The notes beneath the pieces are model-generated. The model had not been told where the DNA came from and did not search any database. It saw only the letters and a program-made list of their open reading frames with translations. From positions 565,293 through 629,292 of the forward strand of contig KV748256.1 in NCBI GenBank assembly GCA_001692895.1: a DNA stretch of 64,000 bases. Reading direction: 5' to 3'. This document shows positions 12,674-57,261 of this stretch, piece by piece (position 1 is the stretch's first letter; each line of letters starts with the position of its first letter). A program made the translations under genes and the position numbers. Origin of the DNA: Cenococcum geophilum 1.58. Taxonomy: Eukaryota; Ascomycota; Dothideomycetes; Gloniales; Gloniaceae.

Positions 12674-12879
12674 TACATCAGGATTTTTTTTTTGGGCGCG
12701 TTGTTGCAGATTGCGGCAATTTGCTGCAAACTGTGCGATTTGCGTGGTCGTATATGGTCGTTAGCGATTTGCGTAAACCGCGCGTTTCGCAATAAATTTG
12801 TAGCATCTGCTAGCAAATTGCAGTAAAACGCTTAACTACTAAACTAATGCTAGCAAAACGCTACCCTATAAATAAATAG

Positions 12880-13025
12880 CGCGCAAACTGTATAAATTAT
12901 AAAAACTATACGAATTATAAAAACCGTATAAATTGTAAAAACCGTACGAATTATAAAAACTGTACAAATTGTAACTATATAAATTGTAACTATATAAATT
13001 ATAATTATATTACGTAATAACCAAA
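12880..13025. repeat. AT-rich array in element A
   Basis: Short units like AATTRTAAAAACYGTAY recur about every 17-18 bp. In B the corresponding stretch (24785-24870) is a different AT-rich array (ATAAAATATGCAAA-like), so this part of the element evolves quickly. Confidence 0.6.
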
Positions 13026-13149
13026 TTATCACATATTCCTATAGATTTCTATAATATACTTTTAAATATATTTATATTATAACTATATAAAATATAGAGC
13101 TATCTACTTTAGGCGTTAAGGGGGAAGCCTCTCGCGGAGGCTCTAAATT

Positions 13150-13310
13150 ATCTGCCTACCTACCTACCTGCCTGCCTGCCTGCTACCTGCCTGCCTGCTT
13201 GCCTGCCTACCTGCCTACCTGCCTGCCTACTTGCCTACCTACCTGTCTGTCCGTCCGTCTATACCTACCCGTCTATGCCTACCTATCTATGCCTACCTGT
13301 CTATGTCACC
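13150..13310. repeat. CCTGCCTA/CCTACCTG microsatellite in element A
   Basis: Imperfect 4- to 8-bp repeats of CTGC/CTAC with later TCTATGCC variants. The reverse complement occurs in B at 18775-18908 and 24490-24650, where the Copia element landed. Confidence 0.85.
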
Positions 13311-13369
13311 TTGATTCGATTGATCGATCGAATCGTTTATCGTGTTCGCTGGCTGGTTCGAACGGTTGT

Positions 13370-13865
13370 CGGGGCTCTGGCGACGTCGTGTGGCGATGAC
13401 GACGGTCGTCTAGCTCTGGCGAACGGTCATCTGGCTCCGGCGACGGTCGTCTAGCTCTGACGACGGTCGTCTGGCTCTGACGGTCGTCTAGCTCTGGCGA
13501 CGGTCATCTAGCTCCGGCGACGGTCGTCCAGCTCTGACGACGGTCGTCCAGCTCTGACGGTCGTCTAGCTCTGACGACGGTCGTCTGGCTCTGACGGTCG
13601 TCTAGCTCTGGCGACGGTCATCTAGCTCCGGCGACGGTCGTCTAGCTCTGACGACGGTCGTCTGGCTCTGACGGTCGTCTAGCTCTGGCGATGGTCATCT
13701 GGCTCCGGCGACGGTCGTCTGGCTCTGACGACGGTCGTCCAGCTCTGGCGACGGTCATCTGGCTCCGGCGACGGCCGTCTAGCTCTGACGACGGTCGTCT
13801 AGCTCCGGCGACGGTCGTCTAGCTCCGGCGATGGTCGTCTGGCTCCGGCGGCGGTCGTCTGCTGG
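13370..13865. repeat. GACGGTCGTCTAGCTCTG minisatellite in element A
   Basis: Units of roughly 18-21 bp (GACGACGGTCGTC plus TGGCTCTG or TAGCTCCG) repeat about 25 times. Each unit contains the small inverted motif GACGGTCGTC. B keeps only a short decayed equivalent at 18480-18700. Confidence 0.85.
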
Positions 13866-14029
13866 CTGTCGTTCTGGTATCTTCCTAGGTAGGGAGGATG
13901 TAAGGAAGGGTAAAAATGAGTGGCTATCTAGGTGTATATAGGGGGTATACTTGGCAGAGGCACGTGTAGAGGCTATCGGGAATATAGCGGGGACCCGATA
14001 GTAATGTATCGCGCGCACACACAAAGGCT

Positions 14030-15230
14030 TTGTGTAGAGCTTCGTATAGAGCCTCCGTACGTAGAGCTTCGCGCAGAGCCTCGTGTAGGAGCTTCGCGCA
14101 GAGCCTCGTACAGAGCCTCCATATGTAGAGCTTCGTGTAGAGCTTTATATAGAGCTTTGTGCAGAGCTTCGTGTAGAGCTTCGTGCAGAGCCTTGTGTAG
14201 AGCTTCGTGTAGAGCTTTCGTGCAGAGCCTCGTGCAGAGCCTCTATATGCAGAGCTTTGTGTAGAGCCTCGTGTAGAGCCTCGTGCAAAGCTTCGTGTAG
14301 AGCTTCGTGTAGAGCTTCGTGCAGAGTTTCGTGCAGAGCTTCGTGCGGAGCTTCGTGTAGAGCCTTGTGCAGAGCCTCTGTACGCAGAGCTTTATGTAGA
14401 GCTCGTGTAGAGCCTCGTGTAGAGCCTCGTGCAAAAGTTCGTGTAGAGCTTCGTGTAGAGCTTCGTGCAGAGCTTCGTGCAGAGCTTCGTACAGAGCTTC
14501 GCGTAGAGCCTCGTGCAGAGCCTCTGTACGTAGAGCTTTGTGTAGAGCCTTATGTAGAGCTCGTGCAAAGCTTCGTGTAAAGCTTCGTGCAGAGCTTCGT
14601 GTAGAGCCTCGTGTAGAGCTTCGTGCAGAGTCTCATGTAGAGCTTCGTGCAGAGCCTCGTGTAGAGCCTCATGCAGACCCTAGTGTAGAACCTCGTGCAG
14701 AGCTTCGTGTAGAGCTTCGTGTGGAGCTTCGTGTAGAGCTTCGTGTGGAGCTTCGTGTGGGAGCTTCGTGTAGAGCTTCGTGCAGAGCTTCGTGCAGAGC
14801 CTCGTGTAGAGCTCGTGGTTCGTGTAGAGCCTCGTGGCAAGAGCCTCTGTAGAAGCTCGTTACGGCAAAGCTTCGTGTAGAGCCTCGTGTAGAGCCTCGT
14901 GTAGAGCTTCGTGCAGAGCTTCGTGCAGAGCTTCGTGTAGAGCTTCGTGTAGAGCTTCGTGTAGAGCTTCGTGTAGAGCTTCGTGTAGAGCTTCGTGAGG
15001 AGCTTCGTGTAGAGCTTCGTGTAGAGCTTCGTGTAGAGCTTCGTGTAGAGCTTCGTGTAGAGCTTCGTGTAGAGCTTCGTGTAGAGCTTCGTGTAGAGCT
15101 TCGTGTAGAGCTTCGTGCAGAGCCTTGTGCAGAGCCTCTGTACGCAGAGCTTTATGTAGAGCCTTGTGTAGAACCTCGTGCAAAGCTTTGTGTAGAGCTT
15201 CGTATGGAGCTTCGTGCAGCGCTTTATGCA
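14030..15230. repeat. 12-bp minisatellite of element A (about 100 units)
   Basis: The unit is GAGCTTCGTGTA with variants GAGCCTCGTGCA and GAGCTTTGTGTA. Because 12 is a multiple of 3 and the unit lacks stops, long reading frames appear on both strands (for example CRAS or HEAL repeats). They show no start context, composition or conservation of a protein, so I treat them as by-products. Marker units CTCTGTACGCAGAGC recur at irregular steps (near 14051, 14240, 14373, 14519 and 15124). Confidence 0.9.
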
Positions 15231-15258
15231 GTTTTATGGTATTTTTGTTACATTTTTG

Positions 15259-15407
15259 TTGCAGCCAAAAATTAGGGTCTGCTTAAGTCGCTTAAGTCGC
15301 AATTTTAGCAATTTATATAAAGTAGCCTGCAAATCGCTGCAAATCGCCGCAAATTGCTAAAATTGCGACTTAAGCGAGTTAAGCAGACCCCAATTTTTGG
15401 CTGCAAC
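15259..15407. repeat. Subterminal hairpin at the right end of element A
   Basis: Arms of about 57 bp (15259-15315 and 15351-15407), starting GTTGCAGCCAAAAATT and ending in the complement, surround a loop of GCAAATCGC repeats. The matching end of B (16890-17125) has the same arms with a longer loop. Only this end has the hairpin; the other has only the simple terminal repeat. Confidence 0.75.
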
Positions 15408-15436
15408 AACGCGCCCAAAAAAAAAATCCTGATGTA

Positions 15437-16861
15437 CTACTAAAATTAAACTATAATATCTATAACAAGGAGTTATTAGGTATAGTTACAGCACTAAAGA
15501 AATAAAAAGTATTCTTATAAGGTATAGAGAAACTGTTTATAGTTAAGACGGATTATAAGAACTTAATAGGATTCTTAACGATAAAGGAACTTAACTAGAG
15601 ATAAGTAAGATAGGTAGAGATGCTTATAAAATACTATTTTAAGATTTAGTATACTAAGGGTATAGACAATATATAAGCAGATGCTCTAAGTTAAAAAGCT
15701 AAATTATAAAACAATAAAAAGCTATTAGGGGCTTTACCGCGAAAAGACATAAACGGACTAATTAGATATAATTATCTAAAAATTATAATAACTTAGGAGG
15801 AACTAAAAAGAGTTTACAAGTTACTAGAAAGCTTTTAGGTATAAAGAATTCTAGAGGTACAGCTAAAAGATCCATAGATGGATATATATAAAAATTAAGA
15901 AATAAAGTATATTCTAAGAAGTATAGCAGAACATTTTATAGAAGATTTCTATAAGGGAATAACTTAAGGACATAATAGAGCCACGGGCTTAGTATTAAGA
16001 CTTTAGGAGGAGTATATTATTAATAGAATCTAGGGCTTAGCGCGAAAAGTTATAAGAAAATATTTAAATTGCTAAAGAAATAAACTAATAAGGTATAAGC
16101 CGTATAAAGGGCTATAACCTATTAAAATACCAGAGAGACTATAGGAGGTTATATTATAGGACTTTATTATTAAGTTACTAAAGTTAAAAAACCCTATTAC
16201 CGGATAAGATTATAATATAATCTTAGTAATAGTAGATAAGCTTATAAAGTAGGGATACTTAATAGTATATATAGAAGAAATATTAGTAGAAGATATCGCT
16301 AGAATCTATATTAAAGAAGTATTTATAAGATATAGAGTATTAAGTAAAATTATATTAGACAGAGATCTAAGATTTATAGTAGTATTTTAAGAGGTATTCT
16401 TAGCGGAATAAGGAGTTAAAGTAGCAACATCTACTATATATTATCTGCAAATAGACGGCTAAACGGAAAGATTAAACTAGATACTAAAAGAGTATTTAAG
16501 ACATTATATTAATTACGCATAAAATAATTAGGTATTATTATTACTAGTTATATAGTTTATATATAATATAACACCATAAAAAGGAATAGGCATATTACTA
16601 TTTAAAGCAAATTACGGATATAAGCTAAGAATATTATTATTACTATAGTAAATAAAGAAAACAAATAGTATAGCTAAAGAAAGAATAAAGATACTAATAA
16701 ATCTTTATATAGACCTTATAGAAATAGCGAAAACAGTATAGTAAAGAATAAAAAGGTATTATGACGCTAAGAGATTTAAGGGACTAGATCTTAAGGAGGG
16801 AGATAAAGTATAGCTACTATATAAAAATTTTAAAAGTTAACGACTAAGTAAGAAGTTAGAC
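15437..16861 (+). mobile_element. Gypsy G2, middle part (fossil)
   Basis: Continues G2 after element A with the rest of RNase H (about 15440-15690) and integrase (about 15880-16800, with zinc-binding and core regions recognisable). It ends abruptly at the TA target site of element B. Same RIP-saturated composition as the first part. Confidence 0.75.
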
Positions 16862-17129
16862 TACATTAGGAAATTTTTTTTTAGGCACGTTGTCGCAAGC
16901 GAAAATCGGGGTCTGCAAAACCTGCGTAAGTCGCAATTTTGGCAATTTGCGGCAATTTGCAGCAATTTACTATAAATACGCAAGTAGCCTGTGCAAATTG
17001 CTGCAAATACGCAAGTAGCCTGTGCAAATTGCTGCAAATACGCAAGTAGCCTGTGCAAGTTGCTGCAAATTGCTAAAATTGCTAAAATCGCGACTTAAGC
17101 AGACCCTAATTTTTGGCTGTAATAAAAAT

Positions 17130-18360
17130 ACCACAAAGCTCTATACAAAGCTCTACTAAGGCTCTGTACGAAGCTTTGCACGAAGCTCTATATAAAGCTC
17201 TATATAAAGCTTTACACGAAGCTCTATATAAAGCTCTATATAAAGCTCTACACAAAGCTCTATACGAAGCTCTATACGAAGCTCTATATAAAGCTCTATA
17301 TAAAGCTCTATATAAAGCTCTATATAAAGCTTTATACGAAGCTCTATATAAAGCTCTATACAAAGCTTTATACGAGGCTCTATATAAGGCTCTATATAAA
17401 GGTCTACGTACAGAGGCTCTGTATAAGGCTCTATACGAAGCTCTATACGAAGCTCTGCATAAAGCTCTGCACGAAGCTCTATATAAAGCCCTGCACGAAG
17501 CTCTATATAAAGCTTTGCGCGAGGCTTTACACAAGGCTCTATATAAAGCTCTACGTATAGAGGCTCTATACGAGGCTCTGTACGAAGCTTTGTATAAAGC
17601 TTTATATAAAGCTCTACACGAAGCTCTATACGAAGCTCTATACGAAGCTCTACACAAAGCTCTATACGAAGCTTTGCATAAGGCTCTATATAAGGCTCTA
17701 TATAAAGGTCTACGTATAGAGGCTCTATATAAGGCTCTATACGAAGCTCTATACAAAGCTCTGTACGAAGCTCTATACGAAGCTCTATATAAAGCCCTGC
17801 ACGAAGCTCTATATAAAGCTTTGCGCGAGGCTTTATATAAGGCTCTATATAAAGCTCTACGTATAGAGGCTCTATGCGAGGCTCTATATAAAGCTCTACA
17901 CAAAGCTCTATACGAAGCTCTATACAAAGCTCTATACGAAGCTTTACACGAAGCTCTATATAAAGCTCTATACGAAGCTTTATACGAGGCTCTATATAAG
18001 GCTTTACACGAAGGTCTGCGTACAGAGGCTCTGTATAAGGCTCTATACGAAGCTCTGTACGAAGCTCTATATAAAGCTCTGTACAAAGCTCTATATAAAG
18101 CCCTGCATGAAGCTCTATATAAAGCTTTACGCGAGGCTTTACACAAGGCTCTATATAAAGCTCTGCGTATAGAGGCTCTATATAAGGCTCTATACGAAGC
18201 TCTGCACGAAGCTCTATACAAAGCTTTGCATGAGGCTCTATATAAGGCTCTATACGAAGCTCTGCATAGGGCTCTATATGAAGCTCTACGTACAGAGGCT
18301 CTGCACGAGGCTTTACGCGAAGCTCTGCGTATGGAGGCTCTACATGAAGCTCTGTATTGG
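17130..18360. repeat. 12-bp minisatellite of element B with 306-bp higher-order period
   Basis: The unit is GCTCTATACGAA or GCTCTATATAAA, the reverse complement of A's unit after C-to-T and G-to-A change. Marker units CTACGTA or CTGCGTA fall near 17404, 17551, 17710, 17858, 18016 and 18162. The steps are 147, 159, 148, 158 and 146, so pairs sum to about 306 bp. This is a two-block higher-order repeat on top of the 12-bp unit. The 437-438-codon frames on both strands are by-products. Confidence 0.85.
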
Positions 18361-18775
18361 GTCCCCACTATATTCCCGATAGCCTCTACACATGCCTCTA
18401 CTAAGATACCCCTTATATACACCTAGGTAGCCACCTTATTTTCTACCCTTTCTTATATCCTCCCTACCTAGGGAGACACCAGAACGACAGCTAGCAGACG
18501 ACCGTTGCCAGAACCAGACGACCACCGTTTAAACGACCATCCAGCAAACGCCACGAACGATTTAATCAACCGATCGATTGAATTAAACCAGAGCTTTAAT
18601 ATCGGCCCGTCGCCGAATCGAATCAAGGCCTCCTAGGTAGGCACCCCAGACGACCACCGTTCGAATATACAGCCAGCGAACGGCCGTAGAGAACGATTTA
18701 AATTAATACGATCAATCGATCAATCGAATCAGGCGGAGCCTTTGATCGGGCCGACCTTTCCCCCAAATTACAGAT
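18360..18775. other. Unique segment and decayed minisatellite of element B
   Basis: 18360-18480 matches, inverted, A's 13870-14010, including CCTACCTAGG and a shared GGGTCCCC junction to the array. 18480-18700 holds two or three decayed AGACGACCGT units. No gene is seen. Confidence 0.7.
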
Positions 18776-18908
18776 AGGTAGGTATAGACGGTAGCATAGA
18801 TAGGAGGCACAGACGGTAGGTATAGACGGTAGGTATAGACAGGTAGGCATAGACAGGTAGCATAGACAGGTAGGTACAGATAGGTAGGCACAGACAGTAG
18901 GCACAGAC

Positions 18909-19089
18909 TGTTGGAAAACAAGCCCGCAACGATATCACGTGATGAGACTTGTGGGAGAAAGCTCTTGGCAGGAATCTGACCAATCAGACAACTTCGACCG
19001 GCGGTCGAAGTTCCTTGAAATCTCTTTAACCACCTATATAGAAAATAAGCAATATATAGAGTTTTTAGCTACATAACCTTAATTCAATA
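18909..19089 (+). repeat. 5' LTR of the Copia element
   Basis: 181 bp, starting TGTTGGAAAAC. It contains the palindrome ATCACGTGAT and an inverted pair around CGACCGGCGGTCG. The boundary is fixed by the 5-bp duplication and by the primer-binding site that follows. Confidence 0.92.
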
Positions 19090-19112
19090 GGTTATGAGCC
19101 CGGGTTCGCGCC
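19090..19112 (+). promoter_or_regulatory. Primer-binding site matching the anticodon region of initiator tRNA-Met
   Basis: The sequence right after the LTR is complementary to GGGCTCATAACC, the anticodon stem-loop region of fungal initiator tRNA-Met (anticodon CAT). Priming by a cleaved half-tRNA is known for Drosophila copia and relatives. This matches an internal tRNA site rather than the tRNA 3' end. Confidence 0.7.
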
Positions 19113-22100
19113 TAATGAGCTAAATCTAATTGCTTTATTATTGTTACGATAATTGCTGTCGCAATATTACCACACGGGCGTTAACAGAAGTCGGTAAACG
19201 TTTACCAACTTATAATGCTAAAAACCTATAACAAGCAGCTATATAGCTGCTGACGGACTCTACGCCGAATGTATAAGAGGATCCTACTAAGGACGAGCCT
19301 AATACAGTCTATAACCAAATAGCGGCACCGGAGGCTTAGGAGGACCTCTTATTTAGTAGACAACCTTACTATCGTTATTATAGAACGATAGAGTTTCGAG
19401 AATAAAGCTTTATAATATCCGCATTAGTAGGGGATTAAAAGAAGCTTATTAGAACTGCCTATACTGGCTAAGGAATATATTAAGCCTACAGACTGCCTAC
19501 TATAAACTACCTATAATTAAAGCCCCGCTAATATAAGCGATAAATATACCGCCCAAGCCTCTGTTCGAAAGCTTGTTAAACGGGAAGACTGGCTAATGTT
19601 TAGTATTAACATACAAAACCACCTCCGATCCAAGAATATCGAGTAGGTCCTTAACGATCCACCATGGCCTTTTCCTACACTAGAGTTGATTAAGGAGAAA
19701 TGGGCGGACTTAGGCTTTACTAGTAAATAGCTAAAAATTAAACTAGCTAAGCTAGTAAAGGAACGGGAGAAATATAAGGAATAGCTAGCCTATACAGCCG
19801 GTTTTATTAACTAGAGCATTGGTAATATTTATAAGCCATTTATATTAAACGCCGGATAGGCGCTTAAAAAATGGAAGGCCTTAAAAGAACGTTTTAAGGA
19901 TCTTAATCCAGTAGCTGTTACCGATATTATAGCTACCCTCTTTACTAAACGTATATAAGACTTTAAGAACGTAGAGGAGTTTGTCTCCTATATTACATTA
20001 AACCTTAATCGTCTTATTAAAATAAACTAACCTATTAACTACAAACTCCTTGCCTAAGCGGCCCTTCTATATAGGGTCAACTCTACTAAATACGCTTAGT
20101 TTAAAACAATAAAACGAATAAATTGGATATGGGAAAATACTAACCCGCGAGCTTTAGGTAAGGAACTCATTGTTTTTAATAGCGAACTTAATTAAGAAGT
20201 CTCTATACTAGTAGTATAATTAAACGACAGAGGGTCTATAAAGAGAAAAATAGCACTAGTTGGGATATGTAAGCACCCTAACTACGTAAGATTTAACAGA
20301 ACTACGTACTATAAAGAAGACTATTAGGAGAGGAAGCCAGATAACGCTTTAAAGGAGATTAGCAATAAGATCTGCGTAAGGAAGAGGCCTAGGACTTAAG
20401 CGTCTGTCCAGCTTAACAAATATTCTAGTTAAGCTAAGCTTAACGCAAATCTATAACAAGAGCTTACAGCAGCGGTAGTATAAGCTTAACTAAGTAGGTA
20501 CGACTTTATCCTTAATACCGCCGCTACTATCTACTGCTGCAAAGATCGCGAACTTCTTTTTAACTACGTTAATGACGACACCTTATTAGGGACAGTTGGT
20601 CCCTATAGGGCTCGTTTAGTAAGTAAAGGGTCCGTCTTTATATAAACCGCACTACCTAATAGAAGCCATGGAAGCACGCTTACTATACACGATGTTTTTT
20701 ACGTACCATATTTACTAGCAAACCTTCTATCTAAAGGCCGACTTAAGGAAATGGGCGTCTTCTTTAATAATAAGACTTACGAACTTGAATATAACAGCGA
20801 GGTAATAGGATACGCGCCTAAAGTTTAACGACTTTACCCAATTTGATAGTATAATTATCCGTTAGAATCGGTCCTCTACACAATTAAAGACAACAAAAGC
20901 CTACCCATTTGGCATTACCGATTTGGCCACCTTAACTACAATGACCTTAAACGCTACCTAAATGAACTCGGTATTAAGTTTAATAACGTTAGCAATAAAC
21001 ACTGTGAGCCCTGCGCTTAATTTAAAGCCAGAAAGAAGTATAACAGAACACCTTAGGAACGAGCTACACGGCCGTTTTAATTCATCTACACGGATCTAGT
21101 GGGACATATTACCCCCGTTGGCTTTAAAGGCGAAAGATACTACGTGTCTTTTATCAACAACTATATAAGGTTTACCACAGTTTATACTATCCGTACGAAG
21201 GATAAGTGGCTCGGTACTCTATAGAGGTACTATAACTAAATCCACACTAAATTTAACCTTAAAATCGCTAGAATTCGTACCGATTACGGAGTAGAGCTTT
21301 ATAGCAAGAAAGCAACGACCTAGATGGACGATCTAGGTATAGAATTTAAACCTGCTGCCTTACACGCTTAGGAAGAGAACGGAGTAGCGGAGCGCTTATA
21401 GCGAACCTCCACCGAAATTACTCGCTTAATAATTCTCGCCGGCAATATACCAGACTTTCTGTAGCCTGACGTACTCCTTATAGCTATATATATTAAAAAT
21501 AGACGCCCTATAAGAGCTCTTGGTGGCATGTCACCTTATGAAAAACTTAAGGGTAAACGTCCCTTAGTATACTACCTGCGGGCTCTAGGATCTACTGTCT
21601 ACTCCCTTATAGCTAAAGAAGATCGCCTAAAATTAGCTAGGTTCGCTCCATAAGTAAAGAAGGGCGTTTTAATTGGCTATAATAGCAAGATAATCTATCG
21701 CGTTTGGCTACCAGATAAACAGAAGATCGAGCGCCTTAAGGACGTCGAGATCTACAAAGGTGACATTAATTTAAAGACTACTACTATATTTATAGAAGAA
21801 CTCGTTAACTTATTTAATGAGCAAGGGAGGGAAGATAAAGACACTACTACTCCTTAGCCGAAGCCTCTATTAAGAAAAAGACAACGAAGAATTAATCGGA
21901 AGGAAGGCCGCGATAGCTTGCCCCGCGGGCTTAAGTCTCTGCCCAAAAACCTTACTACTACTACTCGATCAGGCCGCTAGACGTTAAGAATTAACCTACT
22001 AAGTAACCTTACTGCCTTCCTTATAAGCCTTATAGGTATAGACTAAAGCCTTAACCAATGGGCCGATAATATTAATAAGCTACTAAGCAACTGGGATAAT

Positions 22101-24303
22101 GAAGTAGGTAACGAACTAATAGCCCTTCTATCTACCTTTCCCTCATAATCTATACCTTAAGATCCTCACTTAAACGACCGCGACGTGGTTAATCCTATAG
22201 CTCTACTAGCGGGCCATATTTGATATACTGGCTTACCCGATCTCGAAATATATACATCCACTACCTTAATTAACGAAGATGAGCCTTATACTTACGACCG
22301 AGTAATTAATAGCCTAAACAGCGAAGAATGGATAAAAGTAATGATAGAGAAAATAGGATCTCTAGTTAAGAACTAGACGTAGGAACTTGTTAACTCTACC
22401 TCCCTTAAGCCTCCTTATAAGCCTCTTGCTGGTAAATAGGTATTTAAAGTTAAAAGGGGACGTAATGGCGAGGTCCTCCGCTATAAGGCAAGATGGGTTG
22501 TTAAGGGAAATCTATAGCAGTACGGTGTCGACTACGACTAGACCTTTGCCGCGGTAGTAAAACCTATAGCTTTTAGAGCTCTATTCGCAATTGCTACCTA
22601 CTACGATCTTGAAATTAAACAGATGGACGTTAAAACCGCCTTTCTCTATGGACCGATTAACTAAGAACTCTATATCGTTATACTAAAAGGCTACGAAGAA
22701 GCTGGCAAAGTCTGCCGCCTTAAGAAGGCCCTCTATGGACTAAAACAGTTACCTCAAATCTGGTATAAGACGCTCTTAAAGTCTCTACTAGAAAAGCTTG
22801 GACTTTACCATCTACACGCGGATTACAGTATATTCGCCACCAGTAAAGAATAAAAAGGTTTAATTATTTCTGCCTACGTTAACGATACCAAAATTATTTA
22901 TAGGGATATAGCGGTAGTTAATCGGGCGAAAGCAGAGCTTAAAGCAGCCTTCTAAATAATAGATCTTGGGCTAATAAGCTTTTACTTGGGTATGATAGTT
23001 ATAAAAAATCAAACGAAGAAGAAGATTACACTCTTATAGCGAGCCTACCTTATTAAAGCTCTTAAACGCTTTAAATTGCGAAAAGCTAATACCTTACTAG
23101 TACCCATAAAGCACTTAATTAAGCTTATAGCCAATTAAGAAACTACTAGTGAGGATGATATTAGAAGATACTAGAGCATAGTCAGTTTAGTTATGTTTCC
23201 TATAATAGAAACAAGGCCAGATATCGCCTTTGCGGTATCAACGGTGAGCCGTTTTGCTTATAATCCTACCTCCACCCATATAACGGCCGTAAGGCTTATC
23301 CTTTAATACCTAGCCGGCTTGTTTAATAGAGGAATTACCTATAGAGGTAATAAGAACCTAGACCTTACACCAATTGGCTTTAGTAACGCCGACTAGGGAC
23401 AAGATAAAACCACAAGACGCTCTATATCGGGCTTTATATTTATATTAAACGGAGGACTAATTTCATGGAAATTAAAGCTATAAGCTACCGTTTTGCTATT
23501 AATATACTAATCAGAGTATATAGCTCTAACGGCTGCAGTAAAAGAGGCTACGTGGCTTCGACTTTTACTCACCGAACTAGGCGTACTAGACTAGAGCAAA
23601 CAGTTCGCTAGGATCTTAATTAAAACCGATAACTAAGCTGCAAAAGCGTTAGCCGAAAATCTAGTTTAACACAATTAAACGAAGCACATTAATATCTAGT
23701 TTTACTACGTAAGAGATAAGATAAACAGTGGCAGGATTAACCTTGTATACGTTGCTTCAATTAATATGGCGGCCGACGGCCTTACTAAGCCTCTCGCGGG
23801 TCCTTAATTCTATGCCTTCCTTAAACACCTTTGGATGGTGCAGAAACTTAATTAACTATACTAGACCTCAATAGGAAATCAGTACACGACCGGTAGATCC
23901 TTGAAAAGTGCGCTAAACGACGCCTTAAGGCCTCAAGACAAGCGACAGAACTTAACCTACTACCCGAACCTACTACCTAAACCTACTACCCGAATCCAAT
24001 GGCCACGACATTAGGAAGGGCTCATACCGGTAGGAAGGATGGACATACTTTAGAAGAGATGCAGGGTGAGGCTATAGGGCCTCTAGAGCTCTATGGGCAA
24101 TGTAGAATACCTATAGGGAGGTGCTGCCAAAATTTTAAGAGACGTTTTATAGAGTAGGCGCTGTCTCTAGACGCTAGGGAGGGCGTAACTCCTTATTAGA
24201 CACCTTTTCTACCTTAGAGGAGCTTTAGCAACCCTTATTAAGCAATCTTATACCCCTATATACAGTGTATATAGCGGTATCGTTGACTGAGCTTAAGGGA
24301 GGG

Positions 24304-24484
24304 TGTTGGAAAATAAGCCCGCAACGATATCACGTGATAAGACTTGTGGGAGAAAGCTCTTGGCAGGAATCTGACCAATTAGACAACTTCGACCGGCGGT
24401 CGAAGTTCCTTAAAATCTCTTCAACCACCTATATAGAAAATAAGCAATACACAGAGTTTTTAGCTACATAACCTCAATTCAACA
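24304..24484 (+). repeat. 3' LTR of the Copia element
   Basis: 181 bp. It ends CAATTCAACA directly before the CAGAC duplication. About 95 percent identical to the 5' LTR; every difference is C/T or G/A. Confidence 0.92.
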
Positions 24485-24540
24485 CAGACAGGTAGGCATA
24501 GATAGTAGGCATAGGTAGGTAGGCATAGGTAGGTATAGAC

Positions 24541-24571
<31 letters not shown>

Positions 24572-25086
24572 TAGGCAGGCAGGCAGATAGGCAGACAGGC
24601 AAACAGACAGATAGACAGACAGGTAGGCAGGCAGGCAGGTAGGCACTAGGCCTAGTTAGGAAATCGGTATACAGCCAGCAGATCATTAGGAATACCGCCA
24701 ATTGATGATTTGGAGCCTTTGTAAAGAGTATCCCCCTTATCTTAATTGCTTAATAAATAGCTCTACATTTTATATAGTTATATAGAAATATAAAATATGC
24801 AAAATATAAAATGTATAAAATATGCAAAATGTGCAAAATATATAAAATATATAAAATATACAAAACGTATAAAATACACAGGCTCTGCGCGTTTGCTGCG
24901 AGTTGCTATAAAATGCGCAGGCTTTGTGCAGTTTGCTGCAAGTTGCTATAAAATACGCAGGCTCTGTGCAGTTTGCCGTAAAATGCGTAAACCGCACAAG
25001 ACTATATACGACTGCCGCGACCGTATAGTTTGCCGCAAATTGCCGCAAACTGCAACAACGAGCCCAAAAAAAAATTTCCTGATGTA

Positions 25087-41765: not shown

Positions 41766-42680
41766 TATTGGATATAATAACTATTAATGCGCCCTGTATA
41801 GCTTATTAGGGGATATAAATAATATTAAAAAATAGGTAAAATAATTACCTGTAGAATTAAAGGATAGAGTAATAAATATATACACCTTTAGAAAGTAAGG
41901 GAATGTTTAGTTATAAAAGCGTTAAATTAGATCTAAACTAAAAGTCCGGCAGAAAAAACGCGTTCCTTCCCGATTTAATACACGTCTGTAGCTCTACGGG
42001 TTATACGGGCGTGCACAATCTAGAGTTTAAAGAAGGAGCTTTAAGCTCTAGATTTAAACTAACGCTAAGACCTTAGTTTAGATTCCATATATGGTAAAGT
42101 ACGTCTAGTTTTAGCGTGTTTTTTAGGCGGTTAAAGGAATATTAAAAACTTATGGCTGAAGTTAAGTTAAACTGGAATTTAACTAAATAGTCGCCTTAGA
42201 ATCAGATTGGGGCTCTAGATTAACTCGATTTTAAAGCCCTTATTCTAATTTAAACTTATAACTAAATGTTTCCTAAAGCTAGTTGTGTATAAAGCTGTAG
42301 AGCTCCTCTATTTAAAGCTTTAGTAGAGCTTTACACGGGGCAGAGCTTCGTCTAGTAGAGCCTCTAACTTAGTTTTAGCGCGTACTATATTTAACTAAGA
42401 GTCTACTAATCTATAATAATTCTAGCTTAAAGTAGACTCTATAATTAATTTCCCTAGCTACTAAAGCTTTACTAAAGCTTTACTAAAGGCTCTGTACCGG
42501 GCTCTATACAGAACTCTACTAAAAGCTTTGCTAGAAGCTCTATACGAAGCTCTATTAGAGGCTTAAAGCTCTATATAGAGCTCTATTAAAACTCCGTATA
42601 AAGCTCTACACGGAGCTCTATTAAAGCTCTATATTTACTATAACATCTACTATAATATATAAAATGGCAGCAAAAAGGGC
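41765..42680. other. Non-coding interval with AGCTCTATA-type motifs
   Basis: 41900-42290 has several short inverted motifs around CTCTAGA and TTTAAA. 42290-42645 has irregular repeats of GAGCTCTATTAAAGCT and GAAGCTCTATACGAAGCTC, close to the 12-bp unit of element B. One GCAGAGCTTCGT in A's orientation lies near 42341. No element ends are visible here. Confidence 0.55.
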
Positions 42681-43790
42681 ATACCCTTGCTAAGTTTAAG
42701 GAAGTAAAATATAAAGGTATTATAGTCTAGATAAATACTAGTAAAGGGTAATAGAAATAGCATACTAGTGTTATATCTAAAGAGTTAGGGTGTAGTGGAT
42801 TCTGCAGTCCGGTAGATATAAGTAAAAGGTAGTAAAAAGGGCATCCTTATATCGCGTCTAAAGAAGTAGAATGTAGTAGATTTTATGGTATAGTAGAGGG
42901 CAGCCGAGGGTAGCTGGGGGCAGTTAGAAAGGCATCCCAATATTATATCTAAAGAGTTAGGGTGTAGTAGATTCTGCGGTATAGTAAAGTATAGTAAAGG
43001 GTAATAGAAAGAGTATCCCCGTATTACGTCTAAAGAAGTAAAATGCAGTAGATTTTACAGTATAGTAGATAGAAGTAGAGGATAGTAGAAAGGGCTCCCT
43101 ATATTACGTCTAAAGAGGTAGAATATAGTAGATTCTACGCTACGGTGGGTAGGAGTAGAGAATAGTAAAAAGGGTATTCCCGTATTATATCTAAAGAGGT
43201 AAAATATAGTAGATTCTATAGTGCGGTAGAGGGCAGTAAAGGGTAGTAAAAAGAGTATCCTTGTATTATATCTGAAGAAGTAAAATATAGTAGATTCTAT
43301 AGTGCAGTAGAGGGCAGTAGAGGGTAGTGGAAAGAGTATCCCTATATTATATCTAAAGAAGTAAAATATAATAAATTCTACGCTGCAATAGAAGGGAGTA
43401 GAGGACGGTAGAAAGGGCATCCCTATATTACGTCTAAAGAGGTAGAGTATAGTAGATTCTATAGTGCGGTAAATAATAGTAGGGAGTAATAGAAAGCGCA
43501 CTATCCTTTTATATTTAAAAATATAGAATATAGTAGATTCTGCAGTGCGGTGGATGCTAGTAAAAAGTAATAAAAAGTGGATTATTCTCTTACCTCTAAG
43601 GATATAGAATATAGTGGATTTTATAGTATAGTAGATACTAGTAAAAAGTAATAGAAAGTAGATTATCCTTTTACCTCTAGGGATATAGAATATAGTGGAT
43701 TCTACGGTATAGTAGATGCTAGTAGAGAGTAATAGAAAGTAGATTATTTTCTTACCTCTAGGGATATAGAATATAGTAGTTTCGCTAAGT
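42680..43790. repeat. 81-bp tandem array, forward orientation, second cluster
   Basis: About 13 units of the same family as 34990-36010. The minus-strand 27-codon frame is again open over 43055-43501. The last units are the GGATTATCCTTTTACCTCTAG type. It abuts a fold-back segment at 43801. Confidence 0.8.
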
Positions 43791-43800
43791 AGTAGTCCTA

Positions 43801-44240
43801 ATACTAGAAGGAGTAATTTAAAATATTTAAGTTTTATAACCTTTAATACTTATATATACTTATATAATAATATATATAGGCTTAAAACTATATATATATA
43901 ATATATATTAGAAATTTAGAAAATAATATAATATTTTATATATAAAAATTAGTTATAACGTATACGATAGGCGAGCTGCCCGGATAGGCGAGCTGCCCGG
44001 GCAGCTCGCCTATCGTGTACGTTATATATATTTTAATAATTAATAATTATAAGATCTTCTACTATATAAGTATTAAATTTAAATTATAAAAATAAAAAAA
44101 AGACCTTTAAAACCTTACTATTAATTTATCTATAATAGGTATATATTAAATAGTTTTAAGCCTATATATATTATTATATAAGTATATATAAGTATTAAAG
44201 GTTATAAAACTTAAATATTTTAAATTACTCCTTCTAGTAT
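43801..44240. mobile_element. 440-bp fold-back (MITE-like) segment between opposed arrays
   Basis: Terminal inverted repeats of 90 bp (43801-43890 and 44151-44240), beginning ATACTAGAAGGAGTAAT, match almost perfectly. The interior is AT-rich except for a GC-rich hairpin at its centre. No clear target duplication could be fixed. It is either a MITE or the hinge of an inverted duplication, since the arrays on its two sides run in opposite directions. Confidence 0.65.
43954..44029. repeat. GC-rich hairpin at the centre of the fold-back segment
   Basis: TATAACGTATACGATAGG and its complement frame two copies of ATAGGCGAGCTGCCCGG and one inverted copy. The pairing is nearly complete over about 26 bp. 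It contrasts sharply with the surrounding sequence and contains few CA/TG targets, which may be why it survived. Confidence 0.75.
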
Positions 44241-44965
44241 AATCTACTTTCTATTACTCTTTATTAGTATCTACTATATTATAGAATCTACTATATTCTA
44301 TATCCCTAGAGGTAAAAGGATAATCTACTTTCTATTACTCTTTACTAGTATTTACCGTACTATAAAATCTACTATATTCCATATCCCTAAAGGTAGGAGG
44401 ATAATTTACTTTTTATTACTTTTTATTAGTATCCACCGTACTATAGAATCTACTATATTCTATATTCCTAAAGGTAAAAGGATAATCTACTTTCTATTAG
44501 TCTTTATTAGTATTTATTATACTATAAAATCCACTATATTCTATATCCCTAGAGGTAGGAAAATAATCTACTTTTTATTACTTTTTACTAGTATTCACCG
44601 CACTATAGAATCCACTATATTCTATATCCCTAGAGGTAAGAGGATAATCTACTTTCTATTACTCTCTATTAGTATTTACCATACTATAGAATTTACTATA
44701 TTCTATATCCTTAGAGGTAAAAGAATAATCTACTTTCTATTACTTTTTACTAGTATCCACTATACTATAGAATCTACTATATTCTATATCCCTAGAAGTA
44801 GGAGAATAATCTACTTTCTATTACTTTTTACTAGTATCTACTGTATTATAGAATCCACTATATTCTATATCCCTAGAGGTAAAAGAATAATCTACTTTTT
44901 ATTACTCTCTACTAGCATCTACCGCACTGTAAAATCTATTATATTCTATATTTTTAGATATAAGG
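44241..44965. repeat. 81-bp tandem array, reverse orientation
   Basis: Nine units starting AATCTACTTTCTATTACTC (starts near 44241, 44322, 44403 and 44484), exactly 81 bp apart. They are the reverse complement of the last units of the forward array ending at 43790. Variation is almost all transitions. Confidence 0.85.
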
Positions 44966-50300: not shown

Positions 50301-52900
50301 GAGCGGATAAATAAATAAGCCGGTATCCCAATTGCAAGCATTAAGGATTGGGTAGATAAGTAATAAGTAGCAACGCTGTCCTAGGTAATCCTACTAATCT
50401 AAGCCGCAGACCGCCATTTTCATTCCACCCCTTTACTAGTGAATTCGACTATGCCTTTATAGTATGGCTATACAGTATATAAAGTACAAAAGGCGATATT
50501 AAGCGGTTGTTAAATAACACCCGGCTTAACCAACTAACATCCTACCTTAGTTTTAAATTAGCAGATAATTAGGAGAAGAAGTTACACAGACTACCACTAG
50601 GTATAGTTAATAAAGAATAGATAAAAACTTACTATAAACCTATTATACGTATACAAGGCATCCACCGGCCTTTATATTACTGCGTATACCGAGATATTAT
50701 AAAGGTAATTAAGTTTCTTATTAGTTATAGACCCTTTAGAGATGCCCTTATGTACGCCCTAACGAGAGTATACAATACCTATAATTAGAGGGTCTATAAC
50801 GAACTATATACTACTAATTAGTGGTAGGAAACCTAGGCACGGCTACTAGACGGCGCAACCGTTATACTAGTGCTACTCGCTACAGATAAAACGCAGCTAA
50901 TAACGCATTATAGTAATAAGTCCTCATAGCCAGTATATATTACTATTAGTAATCTTAATTAAAAAACGCGTAGGAAATAGAACTTACCTACTAACCTACT
51001 GCTTAGGTTTATTTCTAATATAAAGAATATAGACTATAATACGCGGAGTGCTTATTATTATAAAGCTATAGAGGAGATATTAAAACGTAAGTGCTTAATA
51101 TATAATAAGTAGGAACCCCATCTAACAAGTCTTATAGCGCTTAAAAATCTCTAGTATAGAGGCATTAATATAGAATATGCAGATAGGAGAATCCGCTAAT
51201 ATTACCCCATTATATATGGAATAATAGTAGACTATAAGGAGTAGGTTCTTATTACCGGTGTAAAAAGCTAGTAACACTATATAATATACCAAGTACCACC
51301 TAATAGACGCGAAACCCTTTTAGAGCGTCACCTGCTTAGGACGCATAAATTAATTAAAAAGTAGATTATAGCCTAATAAGTAAATAACACACCTTAAACG
51401 GATCTAGATTGGGTGTACCCTATACCGTGCTTTATATAGAAATACGGCCTAATTAATATACATAACGTAATAATAGTAGATATTCTCCATTAACTGCTAA
51501 AAGGCATTATTATTAAGCGTCTTATTAAATAGATATAAAAGGTAATAAGTAAAGTTATCCCTGCTAGTAAGAAACGAAAACGTTATAGGAGAACTGTTTA
51601 AGACATTTTAGCAGAGAGTTAGATTAATTAGCGTTTTATAAAAATACCTTAATATCCTAGCTTAAAAGTATTTTATAATACTCCATTTAGTTAAATATTA
51701 TAGTAAACTAGCAATAAGTAAAAGTTAATCCTAAAGCAACTAATTCCTACCCTAGCTCCACTTCTTACTAGTAAGGCACTATATGCAATACACTTTACTT
51801 AGGCGACACTAAATTTTATTACTATAGTATAGTACTAAACTTATAATAAAGAGACACTCCGGTATATAGAGTATACGCTATATCGGATTAATAAACTAAA
51901 AGGCGTATTTTAAGGTTTCCAACCTAAGACAAGGGATTCGGACGAGGGGCATTTTAACTTCCCAAAGTTTTATACTATAACCCATTTTATGGATTATATC
52001 CGCCAGTTTGGCGCCGCTAACGGTTATAATATATTAAACGGAGAAGCTGCCTATAAGTACGCTGTAAAGGCGTATTGGCATCAAATAAATAAATAAAGTA
52101 ATTTTAAGTTATAGATCTACCTCTATAACACTTAGCGCGTATCTATACTAGTAATAGAGAGTTAGTTATTGTATTGCAATTTTAGAACTATATCTACCGC
52201 AGAACGTAGTATAGTACTATAATTAACTAAACTAACGCGTTATATTAATATGCGATTAGCCCCTTAGGGTCTAAAAACGGACTAGTATGCCTATATATCC
52301 TAATACGGTCTTAGTCTTATAAAATAGCGGATAGTAGGGATATTAGCCGACAGTCTTAAGATATCTGATTTTAAGGACGCGCTCGCTATATTTCTTTATA
52401 AATGTAGAAGGAAGGTTATTGGCTAAAATTCTACGTAAGCTAATATGGACTGCTGTGACCTAGACCTTTCTTAGATTAGGCTATACTTTATTTAAGTATA
52501 CCTCTCCTTAAAATGCTAAAAGTGGACAAGTGTGGATCTAAACGACCTTAACCAAGTAGCTAAGGAAATCGTACACTACGCACTAAATTGGCGAAAGTTA
52601 AGTAATTAGAAGCGTAATTATATATAGGTATAAAAATATACAGCCGACGATAGAGATGGGAGAGGGAAGACTAGGCCTATAGGCGGAAGAATAGTAGAAC
52701 AACTCTAGGTTATTATTACCATATTAAATTATTCTACTTTAGGGGATAATAGCCTCCCTCTTTAATTTACTGGGGTAATAGTAAACCTTATACAGTACTA
52801 AAACAATAGTAGGCCTTACCCCGTCTATAGTATAACTAAGGTTAAACACTAGCATTTAACTACTACTAGAAACCCACGCTCCCTAGCTAGTAGTAGATTT
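50300..52900 (+). pseudogene. Plavaka-type DNA transposon transposase (degraded)
   Basis: Plavaka elements are fungal cut-and-paste transposons of the CACTA/KDZ-related group with a very large transposase. Plus-strand blocks in family order: PFHPFTSEFDYAFIVWL near 50430, RPFRDALMYALTRVYNTYN near 50730, DGATVILVLLATDKTQLITH near 50850 (counterpart of the SDKT...PVYLTIGN block), VYPIPCF and INIHNVIIVDILH near 51415-51490 (counterpart of DILHQLHKG), and HFNFPKFYTITHFMDYIRQF near 51950 followed by a GYN block. The size, about 870 codons, fits. Many RIP-type breaks; not functional. It sits between oppositely oriented arrays (49080-49660 and 53100-53870) that may be its subterminal repeats. Confidence 0.8.
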
Positions 52901-53099: not shown

Positions 53100-53870
53100 T
53101 AACTATATATTCCGTTTACTGTTTTCTATACTACTTTCTACTGCTTTCTACTACTTTCTACTATCCCACTACTTTCCACTGCTTTTTACTATTTCACTAC
53201 TTTCCACTACTTTCTACTATCCTACTACTTTCCACTACTTTCCACTATCCTACTGCTTTTTACTGCTTTCTACTACTTTCCACTATCCTACTGCTTTCCA
53301 CTGCTTTTTACTATCCTACTACTTTCCACTGCTTTTTACTATCCCACTACTTTCTACTACTTTTTACTATCCTACTACTTTCTACTACTTTCTACTGCTT
53401 TCTACTGCTTTCTACTATCCTACTACTTTCCACTACTTTCCACTATCCCACTGCTTTCCACTACTTTCTACTACTTTTTACTATCCTACTGCTTTCCACT
53501 GCTTTCTACTATCCTACTGCTTTCCATTACTTTTTACTATCCTACTGCTTTTTACTATCCCACTGCTTTCTACTATCCCACTGCTTTCTACTATCCCACT
53601 GCTTTCTACTATCCCACTGCTTTCTACTATCCCACTACTTTCCACTATCCCACTGCTTTCCACTATCCTACTACTTTCCACTATCCTAATACTTTCTACT
53701 GCTTTCTACTGCTTTCCGCTATCCTATTGCTTTCTACTGCTTTCTACTATCCTACTACTTTCTACTACTTTCCACTGCTTTTTACTACGTTCTACTACTT
53801 TCTATTGCTTTCTACTACATTCTACTACGTTTTATTACTTTCTACTACGTTCCACTGCTTTTAATTTTAT
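53100..53870. repeat. Pyrimidine-rich CTACTTTCCACTGC / CTATCCCACTGC array
   Basis: About 770 bp of alternating TTTCYACT and ATCCYACT units of 10-12 bp. Units differ mainly as CA versus TA and TG versus TA, so the variation itself looks like graded RIP. It follows the Plavaka-type gene and shares the TACTTTCTATTACT core with the 81-bp arrays. Confidence 0.85.
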
Positions 53871-55470: not shown

Positions 55471-56496
55471 CAAAATGCTAATGTGCTATAGCTTATAATA
55501 TTACAATATCCGCGAAGTAGATCCTAGGTGATTTAAATGGCTTAGCTAATATACTATCTTAATTCTAGGCCGCGGCTATCTATTAGTTCTGCCCATACTA
55601 GGCCCTTAATTTATTACTACTAAAGCTAATAAGTTTTTAATAGGTGCCGTAAACCTAATAGACTACTTATAACCGCCTATAAACTTTAAAGATAATATTA
55701 ACGCGCTATTTAACCTTTACGCGCTCCTTTTCTGGAATGGCCTTACGCCAGCAACCTATAGGAACTATTCCTTAACAGTTAACAGCTGGGAGTTATACTA
55801 CGCACTTAAAGGAGTCTCCCCCTACCTGGCTAAGCTGCGTAAACTAGGCAAATGAATTACCTACCGCGCGTTTAGTACCTCCTAGCTATAGATAGGTAGG
55901 CTTAAGGCTAAAACCTTACAAGCTTACGTCTCCGTAATTCGCTCACGCTATATAGATTACGGTATCTTAATTATAGTATTTAAGGATTCTATAGTACACT
56001 AATTACTCACCGGAGTAGCCGCTATCTCTCCCTTAGTAAAAAAGGATAAGTAACCTATTACTAGGGATATTCTAGCCTAGGTAGTAATATACGGCCTATT
56101 GCTACTAGATATTAACACTAATGCCATATTTACCCTTGCATTTGCTAGATTTTTACGGATAGACGAGATTATATATACTATAGCGGAGCTTAAGAACCGA
56201 ACGACCTTCCTAGTAAAAAAGGCCACTTGATATAATATCACTTTTACGCCTAGTAGGATAATATTCCGCCTTAAATAGAGCAAAGCCAATAAGTAATACT
56301 AGGGCGTTAACGTTACTATCGCGGCGGTAGGCGGCCTATTATGCCTAGTTGCTATTATAATAAAGCTGTTTAATAGGGACCCTTAACCCCTTAACTCTCC
56401 CTTATTTAGTCTTAATAGTAAACCCTTTACCTCTTTAGGGGTTCGCAAGATCCTTCCCTCTTATCTAGTAGCTGCTAGGATTAACCTAAGTAGTTA

Positions 56497-56952
56497 CAGT
56501 ACTAGGACAAAAGTCTTTGCGTCTAAGCGATTTCACACCAAAACTCACCATATTCGCAGTATAATTTCTACTACTATAAATTATAAATTTATTCTAAAAA
56601 AATTAATAATTAAAAATAAATAGTATTCCTAAAAATCTATCTATTTAGATTTTTGTTTAATAAAGAATTAGTCTAAATAAATATACTTTAAAGTTAAAGA
56701 AGAGTAAAAAAAGAGTGTTTTATATACAAATTCGATTAAATTTTATAATACCTAACTTTACAGTATATTTATCTAAGCTAATTCTTTATTAAACAAAAAT
56801 CTAAATAAATAGATTTTTAGGAATACTATTTATTTTTAATTATTAATTTTTTTAGAATAAATTTATAATTTATAGTAGTAGAAATTATACTGCGAATATG
56901 GTGAGTTTTGGTGTGAAATCGCTTAGACGCAAAGACTTTTGTCCTGTGACTG
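56497..56952. mobile_element. 456-bp fold-back MITE, Tc1/mariner (Fot1/pogo-like) type
   Basis: Inverted repeats of 175 bp (56497-56671 and 56778-56952), about 98 percent identical, start CAGT and contain AGGACAAAAGTCTTTGCG. TA is duplicated at 56495-56496 and 56953-56954. The empty site is visible in DIRS-like copy 1 around 2300-2301. The 106-bp centre codes for nothing. CAGT ends and a TA target fit the Fot1/pogo group. The low difference between arms and absence of RIP-type change mark it as young. Confidence 0.92.
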
Positions 56953-57261
56953 TACTTAAACTACTTCTTCCGCTAGGGCGCTGCCTAGTTCGCTAAAGAT
57001 TTAGGGTGTTTATATTAGCAAATTTAGCAGCTAGGTTAGTGGTTATTAGAGGCCTTTCGCCTATATATTAAAACTAAAACTACTAACCTTCGTTGCCTTA
57101 ACTCTTACTTCTAGCGTAGTATACCGCTCTTAGCGTAAGAATTACTAGGTAGTAGGTTAAGATATTAAAGGGGCCGCTAAGGCGCTAGTAGTAAGCGAGC
57201 TAATAGCGATTTTCTATACCGGGCATAGAAAATCCTAATTGGTTGGCTTATAACTTAGGGT

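Follow-up and report, generated by a model that had tools for sequence, protein, structure and literature searches.

The stretch analysed here, hereafter the window, comprises 64,000 nucleotides of Cenococcum geophilum 1.58 (assembly GCA_001692895.1, contig KV748256.1, positions 565,293 to 629,292 of the forward strand) and harbours two transposon copies, A and B, whose own bodies are composed mostly of tandem arrays. The two copies are very probably non-autonomous elements of the PlavakaB type with a satellite body, moved by the Plavaka transposase of coding copies in the same genome. They belong to a genome-wide family with inverted ends, a 2-bp target duplication, identifiable empty sites, a conserved order of internal blocks and a left end in common with copies that carry the Plavaka transposase domain (PF18759).

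Copy A is 2759 bp long (12676–15434, forward strand; positions are those of the window throughout), as judged from its inverted ends and flanks, and is bordered on both sides by TA (12674–12675 and 15435–15436), a target duplication identified by comparing the flanks and by an empty site at another locus, L035, where a single TA is found. The terminal inverted repeats (12676–12707, forward, and 15403–15434, reverse) are identical inverted copies of 32 bp, CATCAGGA(T)10GGGCGCGTTGTTGC. Inwards from the left, all on the forward strand, follow the end block with GCAATTTGC-like subterminal motifs, which includes the terminal repeat (12676–12884), array 1 (12885–13010; 9/18/36 bp), core 1 (13011–13151), array 2 (13152–13306; 4-bp and 14-bp units), core 2 (13307–13400, defined by sequence comparison), array 3 (13401–13860; 20 bp, 20/77 bp in Tandem Repeats Finder, TRF, which was used for all four arrays), core 3 (13861–14026, recurring with 93–100% identity at 40 scored places in the genome), array 4 (14027–15224; about 98 units of 12 bp) and a one-sided hairpin at the right end (15256–15409). 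The GCAATTTGC-like motifs occupy five distinct sites in the left end, three in the right end and none in the body stretch tested. The hairpin, recognised by sequence comparison and folding energy, folds at -68.4 kcal/mol against -24.4 (standard deviation 3.5) for shuffled sequences (z -12.6). A second end-like copy may be its origin, given that two terminal repeats face each other at this point, about 220 bases apart, in some members of the family. Among the matches listed at least 13 distinct pairs of facing terminal repeats 150–320 bp apart were seen (for instance L034, 601–859), and one type of right end has end-like repeats on both sides of the hairpin.

Copy B (16864–25084, reverse strand), delimited through its ends, flanks and blocks, measures 8221 bp including a retrotransposon and 2640 bp without it (8221-5576-5). 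It lies in opposite orientation to A, with 1429 bases separating the two. The retrotransposon (18909–24484) was recognised by its long terminal repeats, 95.5% identical over 179 aligned bases, and its 5-bp duplication CAGAC and not by genes, the TG..CA ends and the duplication being judged by eye; the name Copia is the label of the first-pass annotation, a reading made from the window's sequence beforehand. TRF together with sequence matches identified, all on the reverse strand, array 4 (17133–18302; about 95 units of 12 bp) and array 2, which the insertion has divided into 18772–18908 and 24490–24645, while a 9-bp-based array at 24788–24880 (reverse strand) corresponds to array 1 by place and period without a sequence match. 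Core 2 is kept in B and array 3 is reduced to a short remnant beside core 3 with no tandem array. The proposal of the first-pass annotation that A and B share four arrays in the same order therefore stands for arrays 2 and 4 and, by place and 9-bp period alone, for array 1, but not for array 3. Its description was otherwise accurate as to the length of both copies, the inverted ends, the TA on both sides, the opposite orientations 1.4 kb apart and the one-sided hairpin, and also as to the absence of coding capacity: in a listing of open frames the long ones in A and B are the arrays themselves and none is believable as a gene.

A search of the genome (177,193,698 bases in 162 contigs) with the first 225 bases of A gave 420 first-look candidates, of which the 40 that were scored are 84–100% identical. 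The exact end motif, CATCAGGA..GGCGCGTTGTTGC, occurs 39 times compared to 0 in the reversed control, and its inner half, with at most one mismatch, 599 times compared to once, in line with the earlier suggestion that such an element would be spread over the genome. As some copies contain three such motifs the family is estimated at about 200–300 copies. Forty loci (L011–L050) were examined, giving 25 two-ended copies which together with A and B form the set of 27 used below; left out were eight long-type loci (L018–L021, L024, L025, L027 and L029) and seven others (L026, L033, L035, L043, L044, L048 and L049) with an end unrecognised or outside.

The 27 copies range from 1649 to 8221 bp and in 25 of them all nine blocks appear in the same order, namely left end, array 1, core 1, array 2, core 2, array 3, core 3, array 4 and right hairpin, the exceptions being L038, without a core 2 match, and B, without an array 1 match. 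Large inserts split six copies (B, L016, L031, L032, L040 and L042). Tandem repeats make up 52–77% of the 21 copies free of a large insert and 22–52% of the six with one, in agreement with the first-pass view of a transposon with a body mostly of tandem arrays. Among copies without a large insert array 4 ranges from 361 bp (L037) to 1582 bp (L046). When the 40 places of core 3 were compared with the ends, an end was listed within 4.5 kb on both sides in eight cases, on one side in 11 and on neither in 21; these counts are a floor, drawn from the ends among the matches listed (100 out of 599 and 100 out of 129), and even A falls into the last class.

A direct duplication of 2 bp flanks 25 of the 27 copies, compared to 29% matching if the same flanks were paired at random. 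TA is found in 14 cases, CT, GG and AT in two each, and CA, AC, TC, CC and AA once each; the duplication is thus 2 bp of any sequence, with TA preferred rather than obligatory, and the earlier description of the element as TA-flanked holds for these 14 copies but not for the 11 with another dinucleotide. Empty sites in related repeats, searched for in the window and the loci examined, were found for 15 of the 27 copies. In ten of these (A, B, L012, L028, L031, L038, L040, L041, L042 and L045) the alignments of the two flanks extend to the junction, with an overlap of exactly 2 bases. The evidence is less firm for the remaining five: in L016, L037 and L050 the 2-base overlap is obtained by extrapolation, in L030 one row shows it and a second shows -12, and in L036 the value is -3, with the element end set one base too early within a stretch of C. 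In L035 the same host stretch is present with the sites of A and B both empty, 1430 bp apart, and A and B are therefore independent insertions into one fossil repeat, labelled Gypsy in the first-pass annotation, and not a segmental duplication.

These data also bear on what else the pair could be. That the pair arose by a single segmental duplication of array-rich DNA rather than by transposition, as their position in one host repeat 1.4 kb apart might imply, has a negligible probability, being refuted by the empty sites in L035 and further contradicted by the opposite orientation, the different flanks and the 599 occurrences of the end motif across the genome. The first-pass annotation had named three outcomes as fatal to its idea and none was encountered: the ends occur outside the window, TA duplications flank other copies and the pair did not arise by one duplication. 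A miniature element of the Tc1/mariner or pogo type would explain the TA in 14 of 27 copies. Tc1/mariner elements are, however, strict for TA, and 11 copies have CT, GG, AT, CA, AC, TC, CC or AA instead, four of which (L012, L038, L041 and L042) have empty sites read through the junction; the coding copies with the same left end, moreover, carry PF18759, which makes this origin very improbable. Helentrons are rolling-circle elements, and Helentrons and Helitrons have neither terminal inverted repeats nor a target duplication of this kind; both were excluded by the 32-bp inverted ends and the 2-bp duplications.

It has also to be considered whether the frame in array 4 encodes a repeat protein (KALYEALY..) of relevance to the element, for which a 438-codon stop-free frame in B and Pfam scores above the cut-offs for helical families, e.g. 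HAM1_C and DUF7750, could be cited. A period of 12 bp, however, keeps any stop-free frame open and both strands are open, and TRF reports 6% indels in the array of A compared to 0–5% in the rows of B. When nine array open frames were run against Pfam a few were above the cut-offs, with many unrelated families matched at once, and because of this simultaneous matching the scores are taken as a repeat artefact. A role for such a protein is hence hardly credible.

The link to a transposase comes from the left end. Eight of 20 loci retrieved with the left end of A do not run into arrays 2–4, and seven of these eight (L019, L020, L021, L024, L025, L027 and L029) have 3.6–4.6 kb in common at 90–92% identity. 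These coding copies share about 420 bases with A, consisting of the left end block, array 1, in whose place they have a 9-bp-based array, and the first half of core 1; identity over this part is 85%, then 71%, after which the sequences part abruptly within core 1. The left end is a true border of the long-type loci, since their upstream flanks differ, apart from a single 131-base stretch that one pair of loci shares out of register. The deep interior of the coding copies was found at 37 places in the genome, 35 of them of at least 200 bases, and when distances were counted over all 76 DUF6532 rows and 123 PF18759 rows, PF18759 appeared downstream on the opposite strand at 29 of the 35 places (23 distances of 1.85–1.97 kb and 11 of 1.43 kb) and DUF6532 2.5–2.6 kb upstream at 16. 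DUF6532 (PF20149) had been the one Pfam match from ten reverse-strand fragments of the coding interior, with 4e-5 and a score exactly at the 24-bit cut-off. Considering the 40 scored left ends, an A-type left end lies at no fewer than nine of the 35 places, seven at 4.07–4.16 kb and two at 10.5–11.5 kb, and left end, interior and transposase stand at near-equal distances in C31, C24, C4 and C30 (loci L029, L027, L020 and L024). Transposase_21 (PF02992), KDZ (PF18758) and Tet_JBP (PF12851) gave no match in the genome, nor did they in the control genomes, so that their absence carries little weight; TET/JBP is known from some PlavakaB.

Another PF18759 match is situated in the window itself (50675–51526, forward strand; C81:615967-616818), containing 12 TAG and 7 TAA codons. 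The match is uninterrupted, which sets it apart from the partner of A and B, and represents a second Plavaka family. Among the 76 DUF6532 matches 31 are divergent from single-piece PF18759 at 14.9–27.6 kb, 17 of them at 15.1–15.5 kb, and these 31 pairings are obtained whether the single-piece rows are counted as 66 or 67. With the 16 of the first family, which do not overlap with them, 47 of 76 DUF6532 matches accompany Plavaka (a raw count with no shuffled control), which suggests that in this genome Plavaka elements are regularly accompanied by a DUF6532 gene. The literature passage seen on DUF6532 names it beside Plavaka without linking the two.

The ends and the 2-bp duplication were established before they were compared with PMC12730594, which in the part consulted gives PlavakaB families termini of 5'-CATCA..TGATG-3' and duplications of 2 or 3 bp, and PlavakaA ends of TGT..ACA. 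Both ends of the copies described here carry CATCAGGA, with C-to-T variants in some, which agrees with the PlavakaB termini and not with those of PlavakaA; the duplication agrees as well, being 2 bp in 25 of the 27 copies, for ten of which the empty site could be followed up to the junction. It is on these matching termini and duplication, together with the left end common to Plavaka coding copies, that A and B are filed as non-autonomous PlavakaB, within the wider CACTA/EnSpm-Mirage-Chapaev-Transib group, and the element is accordingly not the unfamiliar one it was at first taken for. A number of observations weigh against this assignment. PlavakaB is favoured over PlavakaA by the ends alone, and two copies, L011 and L017, have no duplication. 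The association with PF18759 was seen for the left end (29 of 35 places, four of them in a chain with that end): the transposase that was to be sought between the same ends was found with the common left end, but a search for the coding element's right end, by lists of end patterns and with right-end DNA, did not reveal it, and of the 40 scored right-end matches a single one lies near a coding copy (C53), in the wrong orientation. PF18759 has no match at the expected place in 6 of the 35 interiors and DUF6532 none in 19, and stop codons occur in each of the 123 transposase rows, so that no live source is evident.

Under the PlavakaB assignment, the short copies would have kept the outer left end of a coding Plavaka, that is terminal repeat, subterminal motifs, array 1 and half of core 1, with the genes replaced by three more tandem arrays and further cores. 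Transposase from coding copies would recognise the ends, excise the element and join it to a new site, leaving the 2-bp duplication, and everything between the ends would travel as a passenger. In CACTA elements subterminal motifs are transposase binding sites, and by analogy the GCAATTTGC-like motifs are putative binding sites here. The arrays would expand and shrink between copies, probably by slippage or unequal exchange.

When the ends were compared with the body a further question arose, as it is possible, if doubtful, that the array body is a cassette joined more than once to different Plavaka ends and that this cassette is the unit of inheritance. Nine of the 27 copies belong to another left-end group, with 72–80% identity to the left end of A over the matched parts, which in five of these copies take in the whole block or nearly so, while core 1 stays 94–98% and core 3 87–96% identical to A in the same copies. 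Of the right ends 14 match A over the outer ~105 bases alone (83–90%), and L011, L023, L038 and L042 combine an A-grouped left end with the other right end, the left ends of L038 and L042 being only 83% and 78% identical to A. In the coding copies C25 and C29 the left terminal repeat is of a GGGG type and stands at the place where the left end is expected, 4150 and 4151 bases ahead of the deep interior. Against a cassette, grouping of the outer 110 bases places all 27 right ends in one group at the threshold used, and the two right-end types, defined by BLAST coverage, are less sure than the two left-end types; the ends may have evolved faster or undergone conversion toward coding copies, and array 1 with half of core 1 comes from the coding element itself. 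As far as these comparisons go, the pattern suggests one body joined to at least two sets of ends.

Counts of substitutions gave 1077 transitions to 25 transversions in seven coding interiors, and in the short copies 145 to 29 for core 3 (26 copies) and 105 to 5 for core 1 (23 copies). In the host stretch between A and B the ratio (CA+TG)/(AC+GT) is 0.29, and this value and the substitution pattern point to a filamentous ascomycete. The substitutions are consistent with repeat-induced point mutation, which is most pronounced in the coding copies and present in the short copies too, strongly so in core 1. Whether the arrays protect from point mutation is a guess, and it is rather unlikely that one satellite cassette has moved among different sets of Plavaka ends and across the genome and that the array body at the same time helps the short copies to persist under a defence that destroys the coding copies. 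If it were so, tandem arrays would be a passenger exchanged among transposon lineages.

In comparison with known systems, the short subterminal motifs, which occur in either orientation, resemble those of CACTA/EnSpm elements of the same wider group, as generally described, whereas the ends are CATCAGGA and not CACTA. PlavakaB (PMC12730594, from the part available) is alike in its CATCA..TGATG ends, its 2-bp duplications and in the Plavaka transposase that coding relatives with the same left end carry; the short copies differ in being gene-free and mostly tandem arrays, and the coding copies in carrying DUF6532. The Cg_HINE Helentrons of the Pacific oyster (PMC7492417) are, in the sections consulted, also non-autonomous and modular in flanks and central repeats and disperse satellite-like arrays, but their repeats come from one, exceptionally two clusters per element compared to four arrays here, and they belong to the Helentron superfamily whereas the present copies have terminal inverted repeats and a 2-bp duplication. 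The foldback transposon Tetris of Drosophila virilis (PMC4079207), as presented in the text seen, is likewise non-autonomous with internal tandem repeats and a fold-back structure; there, however, the repeats are inside long inverted repeats and gave longer satellite arrays, while here they stand between the ends. A literature search on CACTA and other DNA transposons with tandem repeats or satellites revealed no array-made Plavaka or CACTA element at title and abstract level, and for Plavaka with tandem repeats the records listed were two versions of one green-alga preprint. Satellite-carrying transposons are already known, and the present family differs from them in its transposon class and in how many different arrays it carries.

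The suggestion of the first-pass annotation that such an element could seed satellite arrays across a genome stays a conjecture. As to the arrays outside the element, 12-bp units like those of array 4 without element ends or cores were seen in one patch, at 42458–42634, within the window and the loci examined. Other repeats in the window are 81-bp arrays at 42793–44963, inverted around a 94-nt inverted repeat that is 99% complementary (43801–43894 and 44147–44240), a 10-bp array of about 78 units, TACTACTTTC, at 53129–53861, and a hairpin at 56495–56954 with arms of 202 nt, 96% complementary and 56 nt apart.

Through the probable assignment made here, an element consisting of arrays alone gains a named transposon lineage and, within its own genome, a coding partner; it also exemplifies how an element with inverted ends can bring four different tandem arrays to many places. 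The copies with empty sites are a good system for following changes in array length after insertion and the swapping of ends between lineages, and the same copies are suited for comparing how the point-mutation defence acts on arrays and on genes.

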